The notes under the pieces were generated by a model. The model made no database searches. It was not told where the DNA came from and was given only the letters and a program-made list of their open reading frames with translations. The position numbers and the translations under genes were made by a program. 64,000 nucleotides of DNA, taken from positions 1 through 64,000 of the forward strand of contig NZ_JACHHY010000019.1 in the NCBI RefSeq assembly GCF_014202905.1, read 5' to 3'. Source of the DNA: Chitinivorax tropicus (lineage in GTDB: Bacteria > Pseudomonadota > Gammaproteobacteria > Burkholderiales > SCOH01). Below, piece by piece: positions 5,266-12,956 of the stretch; the first letter of the stretch is position 1; each line of letters begins with the position of its first letter.

Positions 5266-5911
5266 TCCGAAACTTCCTCACAAATTGATCTATCCACCCA
5301 CACCACCCAGATTGCTTATCATGTGAGACGGTGCCCCGGTGAAACATGCTTCCGCAACCCCGATCCCTGTGCCTGCTCATGCACCATAGTCGATACCGGG
5401 GCAGTTTGTGGCTGCTCGCGACACATTGCTGCACGAGCGGATTCCACTGCATCAAGCGCGGTCTGCCGGGTCGGCAGGCCCTTGCATCGGCCATGACAGC
5501 CGACACCCTTCACCCCAGCCCTTTGCGCAATCAGGCAGTCTGTCCGTGATGAAAACGGGCTACGTCATCACCGCACACACCCCATTGGTGATCGTTGCGC
5601 CGCCCCCGCTTGGCGAGCTGGCCAACCGGGTTTCACGGAATCCGCGGATTTTAACAAAGTGTCGTCCATCCTCCCTAATTTCTATCAATCCAGGCCATGG
5701 AAGGTGGACGTTTCAAATGCTGCTGATATGGCTCATCAACCATGGCCAATCAGGTGCCGAGGCATCACGACACGTCAGATCAACACTGGGAGGATGACAT
5801 CAACAACTGACAAGGGGTGGCGGATATAACTCTGTACCAAGATCCAGAAGATACAGGAGAAAACTGACCTGGCTTTGGCCGCGGATAGCAGGGTGATTGC
5901 ACCCTACTGAT
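5266..5911. other. Intergenic region, 646 bp
   Basis: It separates the 5'-nucleotidase start from the end of the secretion operon, both on the minus strand. It should hold the nucleotidase promoter, but I could not pick out a convincing -35/-10 pair. A weak GC-rich hairpin (CTGCC/GGCAG, 5463-5477) is the only structure seen. Open frames here have no start signals or recognisable proteins. Confidence 0.5.
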
Positions 5912-7258
5912 TCACCGGAAGTCATACCGCACGCTGACGCCGACATCATGGCGCGCGTATTCTGAGATTGGGATATTGGAATGACGGGCAATGTAATCCC
6001 AGCGCAGTTGCACGCTGGTGGATTTGGTGGCCTTCCAAGCCACGCCTGCGCCAACGGACCACTGCCTGTCTTTGCGGTTGATCAGGAAGGCTGGGTTTGC
6101 CCGATCATACTGGCCTCGTAAGGCACCTGCTACGAGATACCACTCGGTATCCACCGTATCGCGCCATACGCCTTGAAAGCGGACACCGCTGAGCCGCGCA
6201 TTGCCATCTGTGCGATCCGCAGCACCGACTTCGCGTGCGCCAAACACTTGGCTGGCCCACTGCCAGCGCTGGCTATCCGGGCTGTAAATCCAGCTCAGGG
6301 ACGAGGCTTGTTGGTCGAAATTGTTGTCTGCCAACCACGGCGCCGGGTACTGGTGGCGCATCAGCTGATTGGAAAACAATAGGTGGTGGTTGGTATTCAG
6401 GCGTTGCCACCAATCGATATTCCCGCCCCAACTACGACGATTGAGCTGCGGGCCCAGAGTTGCCCACTGCCCAATGGCGTTGATGACCACCAGGCTGTCC
6501 CTGAAGCCATACTGCAAACCGGTTCTGACTTCCGCATCATCGGTATGGAACTCGGGAGAATGGCGAAAGCGCTTGAAATTGGTGCGGACGCTGGATACCG
6601 AGCGCAGGGTGCCTGTCAACAGGATCGAGGCATCCCCACCTGCGGTGAAACGTCCATAGCGATCCCGCATTTTCACGTTTTTGGGGTTGAGCTTGACTTG
6701 CAACCCGCCCAGTGCGGGAACGGTCATGAGGTCTTGTCTGGGTGAGGTGTTGATATTCGAATCCCACCCCAATGCAGCATCAACAAAGCCATTGAACACA
6801 TAAGAGCCACTGTCGCTAGGGCGCTCCAATGCAGCCAGATGTCGCATCACCGTGGCCCGCGCTGCAGGTGGCGGCTGCAAGTCCAGGATGGTGTCGAATA
6901 CGGCTTTGGCTCGGATATGGTCGCCCATCATCAGATAGGCCCGGCCAAGGTCCAACCAGGCTGCGGCATGGCGTGGGTTTTGTGCCACAACGCGCTCCAA
7001 TGCAAAGCTGGCAGGCTCTGGCAGGTTATTGGCCAGATAGGCGACACCCAGCAGGTAGTCATAATCCACCTGCCCTGCCCGCTGAATCTCCTCGGGTGCC
7101 AGGAGCTGCAAGGCTTGGCCTGCCTGGTCTTGTTTCAACAGCAACTCTGCCTGATCAAGCAGGTTGGATTCGGTGCCCCACACCGTCGTGGCCGAACCCA
7201 GGCAAAGCACTACCCACCAGCGTACTATGCGCCGGCGCCATATACTGATTTTCTTCAT
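5912..7258 (-). CDS. TPR plus beta-barrel outer-membrane protein, Slam/type XI secretion-like
   Basis: A 448-residue exported protein. An N-terminal signal peptide (basic start, hydrophobic segment ending about residue 29) precedes tetratricopeptide-like helices (about 30-145; LLGVAYLANNLPEPASFALERVV, WLDLGRAYLMMGDHIRAKAVF split across two repeats). The rest (about 155-448) has the alternating pattern of a beta-barrel opening with GFVDAALGWDSNINTSP and ending YDFR. This layout is that of surface lipoprotein assembly modifiers (DUF560), which move barrel-domain cargo across the outer membrane. Its ATG overlaps the FecR gene stop in ATGA, implying translational coupling. Pairing with a cargo-like neighbour supports the assignment, but the specific family is inferred from pattern, not search. 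Confidence 0.65.
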   Translation of the reverse strand: MKKISIWRRRIVRWWVVLCLGSATTVWGTESNLLDQAELLLKQDQAGQALQLLAPEEIQRAGQVDYDYLLGVAYLANNLPEPASFALERVVAQNPRHAAAWLDLGRAYLMMGDHIRAKAVFDTILDLQPPPAARATVMRHLAALERPSDSGSYVFNGFVDAALGWDSNINTSPRQDLMTVPALGGLQVKLNPKNVKMRDRYGRFTAGGDASILLTGTLRSVSSVRTNFKRFRHSPEFHTDDAEVRTGLQYGFRDSLVVINAIGQWATLGPQLNRRSWGGNIDWWQRLNTNHHLLFSNQLMRHQYPAPWLADNNFDQQASSLSWIYSPDSQRWQWASQVFGAREVGAADRTDGNARLSGVRFQGVWRDTVDTEWYLVAGALRGQYDRANPAFLINRKDRQWSVGAGVAWKATKSTSVQLRWDYIARHSNIPISEYARHDVGVSVRYDFR

Positions 7259-9045
7259 GGACGAGACAATACCGCGACACCATTGACAGTTTGCCCTGTC
7301 TGGGTGGTCAACCCAAACCCGGTAGCCAAACCTTTACCCTGCTGACCGACCAGCAACCCTGTGGCGGAACCGGTGCCATGTCCGACTCCACAACCCTTTC
7401 CACTGCACGAGGTCTGCAGTTGCACCTGGCCTACCGCGAAATCCGTGAGCGACTGAAATCCATTCATGCTGCCATGCCAATCCCGCTGTTGCGCATCTGT
7501 CAGGTGGACGTCATATCGGGTGACGCCGGGGTTGCCACCAAACATCACATCCACCGCCATATTGTGGATACGCCCACCCAGGCGGCCATGCTCATCGGTC
7601 AAGCAGGACTGCCCCACGATCTTGTCAAAGGTGAAGGTGCCGTTGATGCGTTGGATCACATCCATGGTAGTGGCGCCACCAGGGGAATAGATGAAATGAT
7701 GGGCAGACACGGCATGATCCTCACCGGTTTCCTGATCAATCTGGAATGCACCCTCCGCACCGCCCGCATACAGCCCCCAGAACACAGGTGCACTATCCAC
7801 CAGCGCACCCCGGAAATGCACCAGCTTGGCGTCGCTTCTGAAGAAGTTGAAGCCTGTATCCGTGTCCGCCATGGCCATCGGGATATTAGTAAGCGGGTCC
7901 AGCAATGTGGCGGCGGACTCCAGGGCTGCATCCATAATGCTGGAATTGAGGACGGTGCCATGCCCCTTGCTCAGTTGGTTCACCCCGACATAGGCCGAGC
8001 CCGCAGGCGCGATTACCATCTCAATGCCATCAAAATCAATGACCACCCGGTTGCTGCTCAATCGCAGGGCCTGCACCACGTCATCCATCGTGGTGTCCTC
8101 GACGCTAGGCATGCTCTTACGAGAGGTGGTGAGCAAATCCGCCGCTGTGGTGCCCAGCATGGCTGGCAACCCATTCAGTCGGGTCGGACTGGCGCCAGGC
8201 GATACGAAACCGACCTGCGTCGGCGCCAGCGCCAATTTGCCACCACCAGCCTCGACCACCGTGCCACCGCTCAACACGCGGTTATAGGTTCCCGCAGCCA
8301 GGCCGTGGCTTGGCTGTGCCACATGGAATACTTCATGATCCGTGCCCCGGATGCCGATCCTGGCCACGGGTGTGGCAATCGCATAGTTCTCTTTATGCAG
8401 CTTGCCGATTTCACCGGTGATGGCACGCAGGCCGCCTTCGACCAAGGTGATCGCAAAACGCTCCGTTCCATCCATCTGGCTGGGGCGGCGGAATGTATCG
8501 ATGACCACGCGTGAATTCTCGTGCAACATCAAACGCCCAGCATCGGCCATATGCAATTGCGCCAAGGCATCATTGGCCACTACCAAGGTATCCCCTTCAC
8601 AGATTGGATCATCTTTTTTCAGATACCGTGGCTCACCGTCAGGCTGCCTGGCAGTGATCGATCCCTTGGCGAACATGACTCGACCGGCAAACAATGCAAG
8701 CTGCCGCCGCCCGGTACCACCCATGCCGTTACCCGCCACCAGACCCGTGCCACCGATACCATTTTCGATGGACTTGTCCTCAGGCTTGCCCAGCCCCGGC
8801 TGGACTCCGGTGCCGCCGATGCCATTATCACGAGGACGACCATCACGTTCTGTCCCGGGCAAAGCACCCGTACCACCGATACCATTGTCGCTAGGAGGCA
8901 GCGTCTGCTGCTGATACCCTGTTCCGCCGATACCGTTGTCCTGCGGCGCCTCGCACACCCCCGCCATGGCAGATGTCGCGAACAGCAGCAACCCCAGGCT
9001 GCAGGCCAGCACCCTATTCAACAATGCGTCAGTTGGACGGCTCAT
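7255..9045 (-). CDS. Secreted FecR-domain protein with NGIGGTG repeats and C-terminal barrel-like domain
   Basis: A 596-residue protein with a type I signal peptide ending AMA at about residue 28. Five copies of an (D/E/G)NG(I/M)GGTG motif follow (residues 36-43, 53-60, 73-80, 94-101, 105-112). A FecR domain spans about 119-270 (GRVMFAKGSITARQ; GIRGTDHEVF). It is not a classical FecR: there is no transmembrane anti-sigma region and no adjacent ECF sigma or receptor. The last about 200 residues are Gly-rich with strand-like alternation ending GLLVGQQGKGLATGFGL and NGVAVLSR. This resembles the barrel domain of TbpB/HphA-type Slam cargo. AGAGGTGA precedes the ATG, and the start overlaps the DUF6502 gene end. 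I infer secreted cargo of the downstream barrel protein. Confidence 0.7.
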   Translation of the reverse strand: MSRPTDALLNRVLACSLGLLLFATSAMAGVCEAPQDNGIGGTGYQQQTLPPSDNGIGGTGALPGTERDGRPRDNGIGGTGVQPGLGKPEDKSIENGIGGTGLVAGNGMGGTGRRQLALFAGRVMFAKGSITARQPDGEPRYLKKDDPICEGDTLVVANDALAQLHMADAGRLMLHENSRVVIDTFRRPSQMDGTERFAITLVEGGLRAITGEIGKLHKENYAIATPVARIGIRGTDHEVFHVAQPSHGLAAGTYNRVLSGGTVVEAGGGKLALAPTQVGFVSPGASPTRLNGLPAMLGTTAADLLTTSRKSMPSVEDTTMDDVVQALRLSSNRVVIDFDGIEMVIAPAGSAYVGVNQLSKGHGTVLNSSIMDAALESAATLLDPLTNIPMAMADTDTGFNFFRSDAKLVHFRGALVDSAPVFWGLYAGGAEGAFQIDQETGEDHAVSAHHFIYSPGGATTMDVIQRINGTFTFDKIVGQSCLTDEHGRLGGRIHNMAVDVMFGGNPGVTRYDVHLTDAQQRDWHGSMNGFQSLTDFAVGQVQLQTSCSGKGCGVGHGTGSATGLLVGQQGKGLATGFGLTTQTGQTVNGVAVLSRP

Positions 9046-9865
9046 CCGTCACCTCTTGTTCAGGTTCACAATAGAAATAGATGCCACAGTTGATGCGCAT
9101 AGGCGCGGCTGGCGGCTGGGTACGATCCGCTTTCATGGCCATGGCTTGCCGGCTCAGCAGTTGCAGCACACTCATGCCTTCTGATTCCGCCAAGGTTTTG
9201 AGCGCCGCCACCTCAGTGGTGGTCAACCCGTCGTAAAACACACATCGCTCCAGAAATGGTGGCAGCGCACCGCTCACGTTATGCGCCACAGCGGCAATGT
9301 GATCGTGCAGGTTCTGCCCCGCAAAAAAGACCTTGTCGTCCTGGCTGGCATTGGGCAGAAACTCTTTCACCTTCAGGTGGACACGATCCTCTGCATCCAC
9401 CGCCACCCGCTGTAGTCGCAGCCATTCATCCAACACCACGCGGGGTCGGATGTCTTTGCTCACCGATTGCACCAGTGCTTCAAACGACTGCCCGCCCCCG
9501 TGGCTCGCCAGTCGCGCCAGAGGCAGAGGATTCCCCGCCTCATCCAGATAGTCGGGCGTGCTTATCCAACGGGCAAACAACTGCGCAGTCAGCGACTCAT
9601 ACGCCAACTTGGCCGTGGGCTCATCCCGCAAGCGCCTGACATCTTTCCGGTGCACTCCGGTCAACAAGCTGATCCGGCTGTCGGTAGGCGGCTTGCCATC
9701 AATCGACAAGGTCTCAGCTTCTTTGACATATGCCTCTTTCAGTAATTCCAACAAGGCCGGGTAAGTCACGCCATTCCCCAACAGCAGGCGAACCAGCGGG
9801 CGTAGCAGATGACGAACAGCGATCAGAAGGCGGGATGAGGGTGCGCCTGGGAGTGGACTGTCCAT
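9029..9865 (-). CDS. DUF6502 family protein
   Basis: A 278-residue soluble protein of the DUF6502 type; function unknown. The N-terminus (LLRPLVRLLLGNGVTYPALLE, continuing to PTDSRISLLTGVHRKDVRRLR; about residues 18-75) looks like a winged helix-turn-helix, so a regulatory role is possible but unproven. It is the first gene of the three-gene unit and overlaps the FecR gene by 17 bp. Starts at 9940, 9907 or 9904 are also open; I chose the ATG at 9865 because the conserved part begins about 15 residues later. No strong ribosome-binding site distinguishes them. Confidence 0.7.
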   Translation of the reverse strand: MDSPLPGAPSSRLLIAVRHLLRPLVRLLLGNGVTYPALLELLKEAYVKEAETLSIDGKPPTDSRISLLTGVHRKDVRRLRDEPTAKLAYESLTAQLFARWISTPDYLDEAGNPLPLARLASHGGGQSFEALVQSVSKDIRPRVVLDEWLRLQRVAVDAEDRVHLKVKEFLPNASQDDKVFFAGQNLHDHIAAVAHNVSGALPPFLERCVFYDGLTTTEVAALKTLAESEGMSVLQLLSRQAMAMKADRTQPPAAPMRINCGIYFYCEPEQEVTDEPSN

Positions 9866-9918
9866 AGCGGTGGATACGTCATGTATTTGGAATAGTCCGA
9901 CCATCATAGCATGAAGCA

Positions 9919-9947
9919 TTGACGCGGGAAAATATTCCACATACTAT
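9919..9947 (+). promoter_or_regulatory. Putative sigma-70 promoter for the VirK-like gene
   Basis: TTGACG (9919-9924) and TACTAT (9942-9947) are separated by 17 bp on the plus strand, ahead of the DUF535 gene at 10038. The predicted transcript would have a leader of roughly 85 nt. The element lies in the divergent region shared with the DUF6502 operon. Confidence 0.45.
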
Positions 9948-10037
9948 TTGCGAGTGATTTTTTCCCACGCAATCAAGTCATCATACTTCCAGGCAACCAA
10001 TTCCGATGGCAGGTGATTGCAGCTCAGGAGCCCGACC

Positions 10038-11009
10038 ATGAAGAATCTTCTGCACAGCGCCCGCATGCTGGCTGGCCCACAGTCATCGATGATGAGCACC
10101 CGCTATTGGAAATACCTGATCCGAGCAGTAGCGATCTACCCATTGACCAGACGTTGGCTGGGCTATCTGATGGATGATGAACAGCGTGCGGAGATGACCC
10201 GTTGCAACACGCAACTGCTGCTCAAGCTGCAACGGCCTTACATCCGAAAGAACATCAGCCTGCGTGAGAAACTGAGCATTCTGGAAGCGCACTACGACTT
10301 CATGGATCGCCATCTCACCAGCCATCTGCGTCAGGCTCTATACCAGACCGGGCGATTGGCATTGGGGGAATGCGTCGGCAAGAGCGGGCAGCGTTATCGG
10401 GTCGAGCTGAATCCGACCCGCTCATTTGACAAGGAAGGCGAGCTGATGGTGTGCCTGATCGCGCCATCCAACGAAGGCGTGCTGACACGCGCGGTATTTT
10501 CGATTCGACAGGATGCGGGGGGATATGCAATGGAAATCGGCTGTCTGCAAGGCCCTCGGCGCAATCTCGGCAATGAAGCGATCAAGACTGCCACGCGAGA
10601 TCTGCATGGCCTGCGCCCGAAAAACCTGGTGATGCGCTGCCTGTATGACTTGGCCAAGCAGTGGGGCATTCAACGGGTGTACGCGGTGGCGGGGCGCTTC
10701 CATGTCTATCACACGCCCTTCCGCCGCCAGCGCACCATTTCCGCTGACTATGACAGCTTTTGGGAGGAGCTGGGCGGGCAGCTGACCACCAATGGCCGTT
10801 TCGCCTTACCGCCTGAGCAACCGCGCAAAAAGCTGGAAGAGATCGACAGCAAAAAACGTGCGCAATATGTACGCCGCTTCAGCCTGGAAGATGATCTGAG
10901 CAGCAGCATCAGCGAGGCACTGGCCATCAGCACACCACCGGCCATCCAATCCGGCCAGGTATTGATCCTGCAGCCAGCTTTCCTGAATCGCTTTCATCAG
11001 GCTGCGTGA
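10038..11009 (+). CDS. VirK/YbjX family protein (DUF535)
   Basis: A 323-residue protein with DUF535 features: LREKLSILEAHYDFMDRHL near the N-terminus, EGELMVCLI in the middle and the conserved block beginning YAMEIGCLQGPR. E. coli YbjX and Shigella VirK belong to this family and are linked to virulence and outer-membrane stress, but no activity is established. AGGAG at 10026-10030 sits seven bases before the ATG at 10038; an in-frame TTG at 10017 is less likely. No signal peptide or membrane segment is seen. It is monocistronic, with a putative promoter at 9919. Confidence 0.85.
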   Translation: MKNLLHSARMLAGPQSSMMSTRYWKYLIRAVAIYPLTRRWLGYLMDDEQRAEMTRCNTQLLLKLQRPYIRKNISLREKLSILEAHYDFMDRHLTSHLRQALYQTGRLALGECVGKSGQRYRVELNPTRSFDKEGELMVCLIAPSNEGVLTRAVFSIRQDAGGYAMEIGCLQGPRRNLGNEAIKTATRDLHGLRPKNLVMRCLYDLAKQWGIQRVYAVAGRFHVYHTPFRRQRTISADYDSFWEELGGQLTTNGRFALPPEQPRKKLEEIDSKKRAQYVRRFSLEDDLSSSISEALAISTPPAIQSGQVLILQPAFLNRFHQAA

Positions 11010-11051
11010 CAGCGTGCATGCAGCAAGGTGACAGACATGGCTGACGACCGC

Positions 11052-11669
11052 TCAGGTGTGTGATACCACTGGCAACCGCTGGCCCAGCACCTCACCCCAG
11101 TCCTGGAGTGAGAGCCGCCGCCAGCCCGTCTGCCGATAGAATGCCAAGCCACGTTGATTGCCAGCAGACACCCCCAGGTGGACACCCGGCACACTGCGCC
11201 GCGTAAAATCATCCAGCAACGTCTGCATCAGCCTACGCCCCCAACCCAGGCCTTGCGCCTCCGGCAGCAAATCGATATGGACATGGGCGGGATAACCTGC
11301 CGTGTCCGGTAAAGGCGGGTGCCCCCTGTGCAGGGCGCGGATCATCTGCGCCTCAGCGGATCGATCCTGCTCCGCGGGCATCGGATAACGCCTGCGCAAC
11401 GACGGAAACCAGCTCTCCTCGCACCGCGCATGAAAGCGGGCGGAATCCGGCGCACCGATGACATAGCCGACCACCTGCCCATCCTGGGTCAAGACGTAGC
11501 AGGAGTCAGGCTCCAACACGGCATAAGGCCCGGCATAGACATGCCCAATCAGCTGTGGATCACTGTACTGTGCTGATGCATCCAGCCCTTGATCACCCGT
11601 CAACAGGCAGATCCGGTACAGCGTCGTCAAGTCCGCCGCTTGATAGGGCCGAATCTCAAACCGTGCCAT
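11052..11669 (-). CDS. GNAT family N-acetyltransferase
   Basis: A 205-residue acetyltransferase. It opens with the typical [15 protein letters not shown] and carries the acetyl-CoA loop region [15 protein letters not shown] (about residues 142-156), followed by the [20 protein letters not shown] segment split over strands six and seven. The 5' end overlaps the ispF 3' end by 14 bp, so it is probably translated with the isoprenoid genes. The substrate cannot be predicted. Confidence 0.85.
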
Positions 11670-12141
11670 CCAGCTTGGAGATCAGACACACCGCCTCGGC
11701 GGCAATGCCTTCTCCCCGCCCTGTGAAACCCAGCCGCTCGGTTGTCTTGGCTTTGATATTGACCTGATCCGGCAACAACCCCAGATCATCTGCGATATTG
11801 GCCACCATTTGTGGAATATGGGGGGCCATCTTCGGCGCTTGGGCAATGATCGTTGCATCGACATTCACCACACGGTAGCCCTTTTCATGCAACAGCTTCC
11901 AGGCATCGCGCAGCAACACCCGGCTGTCGGCATCTTTGTAACGGCCATCGGTGTCTGGGAAATGCCGCCCGATATCACCTAACGCAGCCGCACCCAGCAA
12001 GGCATCGGTCAGCGCGTGCAACAACACATCCGCATCCGAATGCCCCAGCAGCCCTTTCTCGAAAGGAATGGTGACCCCACCGATGATCAGCTTGCGCCCC
12101 TCGACCAATGCATGCACATCAAAACCTTGTCCAATTCTCAT
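11656..12141 (-). CDS. ispF: 2-C-methyl-D-erythritol 2,4-cyclodiphosphate synthase
   Basis: IspF cyclises CDP-methylerythritol 2-phosphate in the non-mevalonate isoprenoid pathway and works as a cytoplasmic homotrimer. The 161-residue length is standard. Zinc ligands D8, H10 (GFDVHAL) and H42 ([11 protein letters not shown]) are present, as are [10 protein letters not shown] and the C-terminal [16 protein letters not shown]. It lies 113 bp downstream of ispD, the usual partner, and overlaps the GNAT gene at its 3' end. Confidence 0.97.
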
Positions 12142-12254
12142 AAGCGCCCTTCTTCAATTGGCCGTCCGAGCTGGGCACAGATCCACCTCAACCATACCCG
12201 ACCAAAAAACATGAGGGACGGGAAAATACCCGCCCCGACTCAATGAACGATTCG

Positions 12255-12956
12255 TCACGCAGGATGCGCAATGATCCACTCTGCCAATGCCAGATCAGCA
12301 GGAAAGGTGATCTTCAGGTTGCGGGCACTGCCCGCCACCAGCCGTGGCGCATATCCCAGACGCTCAATGGCAGAGGCTTCGTCAGTCACACCAGCATCCA
12401 ACTCACCAGACAGCGCCTTGCTCAATACACCATGACGGAACATCTGGGGCGTTTGCGCCTGCCACATACCGTCGCGAGGCACCGTTTCTACGACCTGTTG
12501 CCCTTCACCGGCCCGTTTCAAGGTATCCGCGACCGGCACCGCCAGGATACCCCCCACCGGATCATCTGCCAGCGTCTGCAACAATCGGCTCAAATCCGCC
12601 TGCGCCAGACACGGCCTGGCCGCATCGTGCACCAAGACCCAGCTGGAATCGGCCATGACAGGGGCAATTGCCTGCAGCCCGTTTCTGACCGACTCGGCAC
12701 GGCTGGCACCACCACAGCGCAGCACGGTGAGCTTGGATTGCGCAAACTGCCAATCGTACTCATCGAACCACTCGTCTTCCGGGCTGATCACCACCACAAT
12801 CCGGTCGATGGCCGGGTGGATCATGAATGCCTGCACGGTATGACGCAGCACGGGCTGGCCAGCCAGCGGCAGATATTGCTTGGGGATGGCAGATGCCATA
12901 CGCGAGCCACTGCCCGCAGCGGGCAGCAGGGCAATACGCTGCTCAACCACCGGCAT
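12255..12956 (-). CDS. ispD: 2-C-methyl-D-erythritol 4-phosphate cytidylyltransferase
   Basis: IspD transfers CMP to methylerythritol 4-phosphate, two steps before IspF. The 233-residue product has the CTP-binding loop LLPAAGSGSRM followed by PKQYLPLAGQPVL (about residues 9-35), VLVHDAARPCL in the middle and TDEASAIERLG toward the C-terminus. Its start lies inside the end of dnaQ (14 bp overlap), linking it to the dnaQ-rnhA run on the same strand. Confidence 0.97.
   Translation of the reverse strand: MPVVEQRIALLPAAGSGSRMASAIPKQYLPLAGQPVLRHTVQAFMIHPAIDRIVVVISPEDEWFDEYDWQFAQSKLTVLRCGGASRAESVRNGLQAIAPVMADSSWVLVHDAARPCLAQADLSRLLQTLADDPVGGILAVPVADTLKRAGEGQQVVETVPRDGMWQAQTPQMFRHGVLSKALSGELDAGVTDEASAIERLGYAPRLVAGSARNLKITFPADLALAEWIIAHPA

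Follow-up and report, generated by a model that had tools for sequence, protein, structure and literature searches.

A FecR-headed protein as the predicted cargo of a Slam-like exporter in Chitinivorax tropicus

The window analysed here is a stretch of 64,000 nucleotides from Chitinivorax tropicus (contig NZ_JACHHY010000019.1, positions 1 to 64,000), in which three overlapping genes on the minus strand encode a DUF6502 protein (9029-9865), an exported protein with a FecR domain (7255-9045) and a protein that joins TPR repeats to a beta-barrel (5912-7258). A preliminary description, made from the letters of the sequence, had given the middle product an export signal, a FecR domain and a Gly-rich C-terminus, and the last product a TPR part and a barrel with a DSNIN motif. 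The three genes do lie at these positions, and both products are as described: the middle one has a Sec-type signal sequence and a FecR match of 35.5 bits, and the last has Pfam TPR and SlipAM matches and an AlphaFold2 (AF2) model in agreement, with DSNIN at the start of its barrel. The DUF6502 gene begins with an ATG at 9865 and stops at 9029, overlapping the FecR gene by 17 nucleotides, while the FecR gene overlaps that of the barrel protein by 4 (ATGA). Since the reading frames overlap in this manner, the three genes are probably translated together. The features are:

5912..7258, minus strand: TPR/14-strand beta-barrel outer-membrane protein of the Slam/DUF560 (type 11 secretion system, T11SS) family, 448 amino acids, predicted exporter (SlipAM 24.6 bits; hhalign E 1e-40; AF2 predicted local distance difference test score, pLDDT, 82)
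6827..7171, minus strand: periplasmic TPR domain of the exporter, residues 30-144, eight helices (Pfam TPR matches; AF2 helices)
5918..6802, minus strand: DUF560-type barrel of the exporter, residues 153-447, 14 predicted transmembrane strands, opening with DSNIN and with RHSNIPISEYARH close to its end
7255..9045, minus strand: exported FecR-headed protein, 596 amino acids, predicted T11SS cargo (Pfam FecR; a FecR gene adjoins 69 of 70 related exporters)
8962..9045, minus strand: Sec-type signal sequence of the cargo, without a lipobox (read from the sequence; hydrophobicity rule in 58 relatives)
8713..8943, minus strand: cargo linker with five NG(I/M)GGTG repeats (sequence; similar repeats in loci L003 and L040)
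8146..8700, minus strand: FecR head, roughly residues 116-300, with partial resemblance to the LapA retention module (Pfam and profile matches)
7258..7974, minus strand: C-terminal TbpB/hemophilin-type barrel domain of the cargo, about residues 358-596, predicted handle for recognition by the exporter (profile against PDB)
9029..9865, minus strand: DUF6502 protein, possible regulator, lineage-specific (Pfam DUF6502 113 bits; rarely linked elsewhere)

Judged by its homologies, the TPR/barrel protein is a true relative of Slam/DUF560. It passes the Pfam SlipAM cut-off narrowly (24.6 bits, cut-off 22) and matches TPR families (TPR_19 and others); among 19 exporter relatives, 12 match SlipAM (best E-value 1.5e-10) and six match TPR_Slam. 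We compared a profile of these exporters by hhalign with an alignment of ten classic Slams, taken from genomes with strong SlipAM matches, and obtained 398 aligned columns at 100% and E 1e-40. The barrel alone gave 99.7% (E 3e-27), compared with 3% for a reversed control and at most 0.2% for column-shuffled ones, and the barrel profile finds nine of the ten classic Slams while matching neither PgaA nor BcsC of E. coli (E 5.8e+02 for both). DSNIN is the counterpart of D-x-N-I-N in classic Slams. The AF2 model shows 14 transmembrane strands and eight TPR helices, with a preceding one that is the signal, and thus agrees with the architecture of Slam1, TPR plus a 14-strand barrel (PMC5449769). Its closest folds are 14-strand CymA and OmpG (Z 23-22) and its top Foldseek matches are BcsC, which likewise combines TPR and barrel; fold searches listed porins, BcsC and TPR proteins and no Slam structure, an absence that is uninformative.

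The FecR protein consists of the signal sequence, the five repeats (residues 37-112), the FecR head (Pfam FecR, cut-off 24 bits) and the Gly-rich C-terminal domain, which has the motifs V-x-W-G-R-W close to its start and G-x-F-x-G-x-x-A-x-G close to its end. For this last domain we used a profile of 58 sequences, gathered by iteration without any known cargo. When searched against all PDB sequences it matched TbpB (3e-9), Tbp2 (1e-8), hemophilin (4e-6) and haemophore (4.5e-5), and more weakly LbpB (1e-3) and GNA2132 (2e-3), the next other match having an E-value of 2.2; the PDB matches from 3e-9 to 6e-3 are all either established Slam cargo or share that type of barrel. Against four cargo proteins from classic Slam loci the profile gave E 3.5e-5 (reversed control 0.12). 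These matches argue for the barrel-type C-terminus that had been proposed from the sequence. By a hydrophobicity rule, a hydrophobic signal sequence is present in the window's cargo and in 58/58 relatives that have both FecR and barrel. None of these 58 has a lipobox at the likely cleavage site, and four lipobox-like matches fall within the hydrophobic stretch.

Relatives of the cargo vary in their make-up. Linker repeats similar to those of the window occur in its two closest relatives (L003, 5635-7437, and L040, 5409-7172), and the NGIGGTG DNA pattern is found nowhere else in the window's genome. Several relatives carry two to four cargo-type barrels in tandem: at L051, two FecR proteins of 1334 and 1040 amino acids (5397-9401 and 9549-12671) have four and three tandem barrels, respectively, with one exporter adjoining. 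An extra N-terminal LysM-like segment precedes the FecR head in FecR-barrel proteins of L057, L063, L078, L089 and L107. In the window's own genus, a two-barrel protein (L146, 13256-14749) stands without an exporter, next to a CHASE2 cyclase and a contig end.

Linkage of exporter and FecR genes was followed in a sample of 369 genomes spread over the class, 58 of which (about one in six) contain 65 strong exporter places. From coordinates alone, a FecR match lies within 3 kb of 59 of these 65, always on the same strand. Once the loci were in hand, a FecR gene was found beside 69 of 70 exporters, the exception (L080) ending at a contig edge. FecR and barrel occur in one protein at 54/70 exporter loci, and several of the rest are truncated at contig ends. 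In several genomes (e.g. G060, G012, G124 and G116) two exporters are present, each with a FecR partner. Elsewhere the exporter usually precedes the FecR gene, an order that is reversed in the window's clade. The order of all three genes recurs in a second genome of the genus (L006/L040) and in an Aquitalea metagenome-assembled genome (L003); since it does so, and since the exporter/FecR pair recurs in dozens of unrelated genomes, a chance arrangement is excluded. The window's genome has a single SlipAM protein above the cut-off and a single clear barrel protein, and these adjoin each other. A tree of 89 proteins separates the FecR-linked exporters, with L113 as the sole exception, by a 100/99 branch both from classic Slams and from a further DUF560-like branch that has no FecR neighbours; the latter, also well supported, comprises L110, L111, L112 and L114-L117. 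Of the 36 SlipAM places that exceed the cut-off, 19 belong to the FecR-linked branch. Scans of viral contigs gave no relatives.

The homology of the exporter to Slams, the homology of the cargo's tail to Slam cargo and the near-total linkage of the two genes are all established by computation. Because of these three, the reading already put forward in the preliminary description is supported, namely that the locus encodes a T11SS (Slam/DUF560) exporter together with a cargo that has FecR where other cargo has a head for binding haem or transferrin; the cargo would be non-lipidated, and we give this sequence-based reading a probability of roughly 0.78. Sec would take the FecR protein to the periplasm without lipidation, where the neighbouring TPR/14-strand barrel protein would recognise the TbpB/hemophilin-type barrel at its C-terminus and pass it across the outer membrane; the FecR head might then be exposed on the cell surface or set free from it. 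That the neighbour exports the FecR protein, which way the transfer runs and the ligand of the FecR head are all matters that we infer. In the open-access literature we found no paper linking FecR with type XI/T11SS, nor a description of a FecR cargo type.

Several points weigh against a secretion unit of this kind. About five lineages (L066/L070, L093-L095, L108, L109 and L113) have a short FecR partner without a detectable barrel; in L093, L094 and L095 it is a 250-amino-acid FecR protein that either uses a different handle or has lost one. The loci behind the exporter profile had initially come to light via FecR, and the linkage figures therefore describe the FecR-linked branch, not all DUF560 proteins. 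The window's C-terminal domain alone matches no Pfam family, and in single-sequence Pfam searches of the barrel domain TbpB_B_D was matched by only 4/58 relatives, so that a profile was required. Finally, the AF2 model of the full-length cargo, from a three-sequence alignment, is unusable (pLDDT 34), and eight strands cannot be read from it.

One may also consider that the FecR protein acts mainly in envelope signalling, as a periplasmic ligand or partner of a CHASE2 cyclase or kinase, with the Slam-like barrel as receptor or gate and not as exporter. A CHASE2 gene lies within 7 kb of at least 19/65 exporter places, the counts near exporters being lower bounds, and also near at least 12/64 FecR genes that have no exporter. 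Furthermore, an operon of Burkholderia contaminans involved in biofilms joins a LysM-FecR protein to a CHASE2 kinase (PMC5192318), and the lineages whose FecR partner has no barrel would fit as well. Nevertheless, the window's genome has no CHASE2 among the matches listed, so CHASE2 coupling cannot be general; most exporter loci likewise have none nearby among the matches listed, and signalling would leave the cargo-type barrel on the partner at 54/70 loci unexplained, which makes this explanation improbable. CHASE2 adenylate-cyclase genes adjoin the exporter/FecR pair, frequently in the opposite orientation, at L047, L049, L051, L074, L082, L083, L097, L100, L101 and L106. An idea that combines export with signalling, which we consider unlikely, is that the FecR head is a LapA-like periplasmic plug: the barrel would be driven outwards by way of the Slam-like channel and the folded head would stay behind, holding the non-lipidated cargo across the outer membrane and reporting to inner-membrane CHASE2 sensors where these are present. 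Such a role is thinkable because retention modules remain periplasmic and keep adhesins lodged in their channel in the outer membrane (PMC13090378). Ten FecR heads were tested, and each matches the first half of the LapA/MpIBP retention module NF033682 without reaching its cut-off (29.7 bits, cut-off 50); the head also matches, again below cut-off, the Leptospira surface proteins LipL45 and Lsa33, and its one significant match in PDB is an antifreeze protein chain (5ix9, 1.4e-7). The LapG cleavage consensus [TAP]AAG is absent from the window's linker and was found in 3/58 relatives. If the plug is real, a type 11 exporter would serve in anchoring at the surface and in signalling.

Two further explanations can be given little credence. 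The TPR/barrel protein could be a polysaccharide channel of the PgaA/BcsC type with the FecR protein as an accessory, as the BcsC matches in Foldseek and the placement of PgaA in PF04575 (PMC8406197) might suggest. This we disfavour as very improbable, given that the barrel profile recovers nine of ten Slams and neither of these channels, that AF2 predicts 14 strands, and that there is no synthase gene among the neighbours of the locus; the preliminary description had reckoned with the TPR protein matching another outer-membrane family, and the family matched was Slam/DUF560, not PgaA/BcsC. The other explanation, a common FecR-type anti-sigma regulator whose neighbour is an unrelated porin, has the Pfam FecR domain in its favour and is contradicted by the gene content, so that we regard its likelihood as minimal. 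A signal sequence precedes the head and there is no cytoplasmic anti-sigma part, while the linkage to a Slam-family protein goes far beyond chance. By neighbouring genes and Pfam, neither a sigma factor nor a TonB receptor lies near the window's FecR gene, in keeping with the earlier remark that sigma factor, anti-sigma helix and receptor were missing beside it; the surrounding genes are of a housekeeping nature (5'-nucleotidase, GNAT, IspF, IspD, DnaQ-type exonuclease, RNase H and QueF), together with a divergent DUF535 gene. PADLOC gave no matches.

The conserved linkage of all three genes expected from the preliminary description stood for exporter and FecR gene (69/70 loci) but not for DUF6502, which is rarely present. 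About 138 DUF6502 places occur in 98/369 genomes and just two of them are beside an exporter of this family, in the window and in G042 (L104); L003 and L040 are further neighbours of this kind. As a conserved third gene DUF6502 was thus rejected for the family at large, and its suggested role as a regulator is weakly supported. The window's protein matches Pfam DUF6502 at 113 bits and has no PDB match. Its segment TDSRISLLTGVHRKDVRRLR resembles a helix-turn-helix, as might be expected of a regulator, at most a local one.

For most T11SS outer-membrane proteins no cargo is known or predicted (PMC12282271), and in one study nine of its ten clusters were without a characterised protein (PMC8406197). 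With the FecR protein, a large orphan branch of Slam-type exporters gains its first predicted cargo, one that is concrete and testable, and the results suggest that the barrel handle can carry heads far removed from haem and transferrin binding.

Among known systems, FecR anti-sigma regulators have the FecR domain (PF04773) in common with the window's protein, which, unlike them, is exported and has no cytoplasmic anti-sigma part, sigma factor or receptor. The BiofilmReg operon of Burkholderia contaminans (PMC5192318) likewise links a CHASE2 sensor with an exported FecR protein, although no Slam-like exporter is described in it, whereas the window's genome shows no CHASE2 among the matches listed. 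FecR heads resemble the first half of the LapA/MpIBP retention module, yet they stay below the NF033682 cut-off and the window's linker has no consensus LapG site. With hemophilins (Hpl, HphA, HrpC) and TbpB/LbpB the window's cargo shares a C-terminal barrel that is homologous by profile and, like the soluble hemophilins, it has a signal peptide and no lipidation; in contrast to all of these, its N-terminal head is FecR, in this group sometimes with a linker of repeats or a further N-terminal domain ahead of it, and tandem sets of two to four barrels occur in some of its FecR-barrel relatives. The T11SS outer-membrane proteins (Slam1/Slam2, NilB, HrpB, TepS; PF04575) likewise combine an N-terminal TPR part with a 14-strand DUF560 barrel, and their genes adjoin that of an exported protein whose C-terminal barrel is TbpB-like. 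The differences are that the partner in the window has a FecR head and the locus no adjoining TonB receptor or haem/iron genes, and that FecR-linked exporters form a separate, well-supported branch that is widespread in the sampled genomes of the class.

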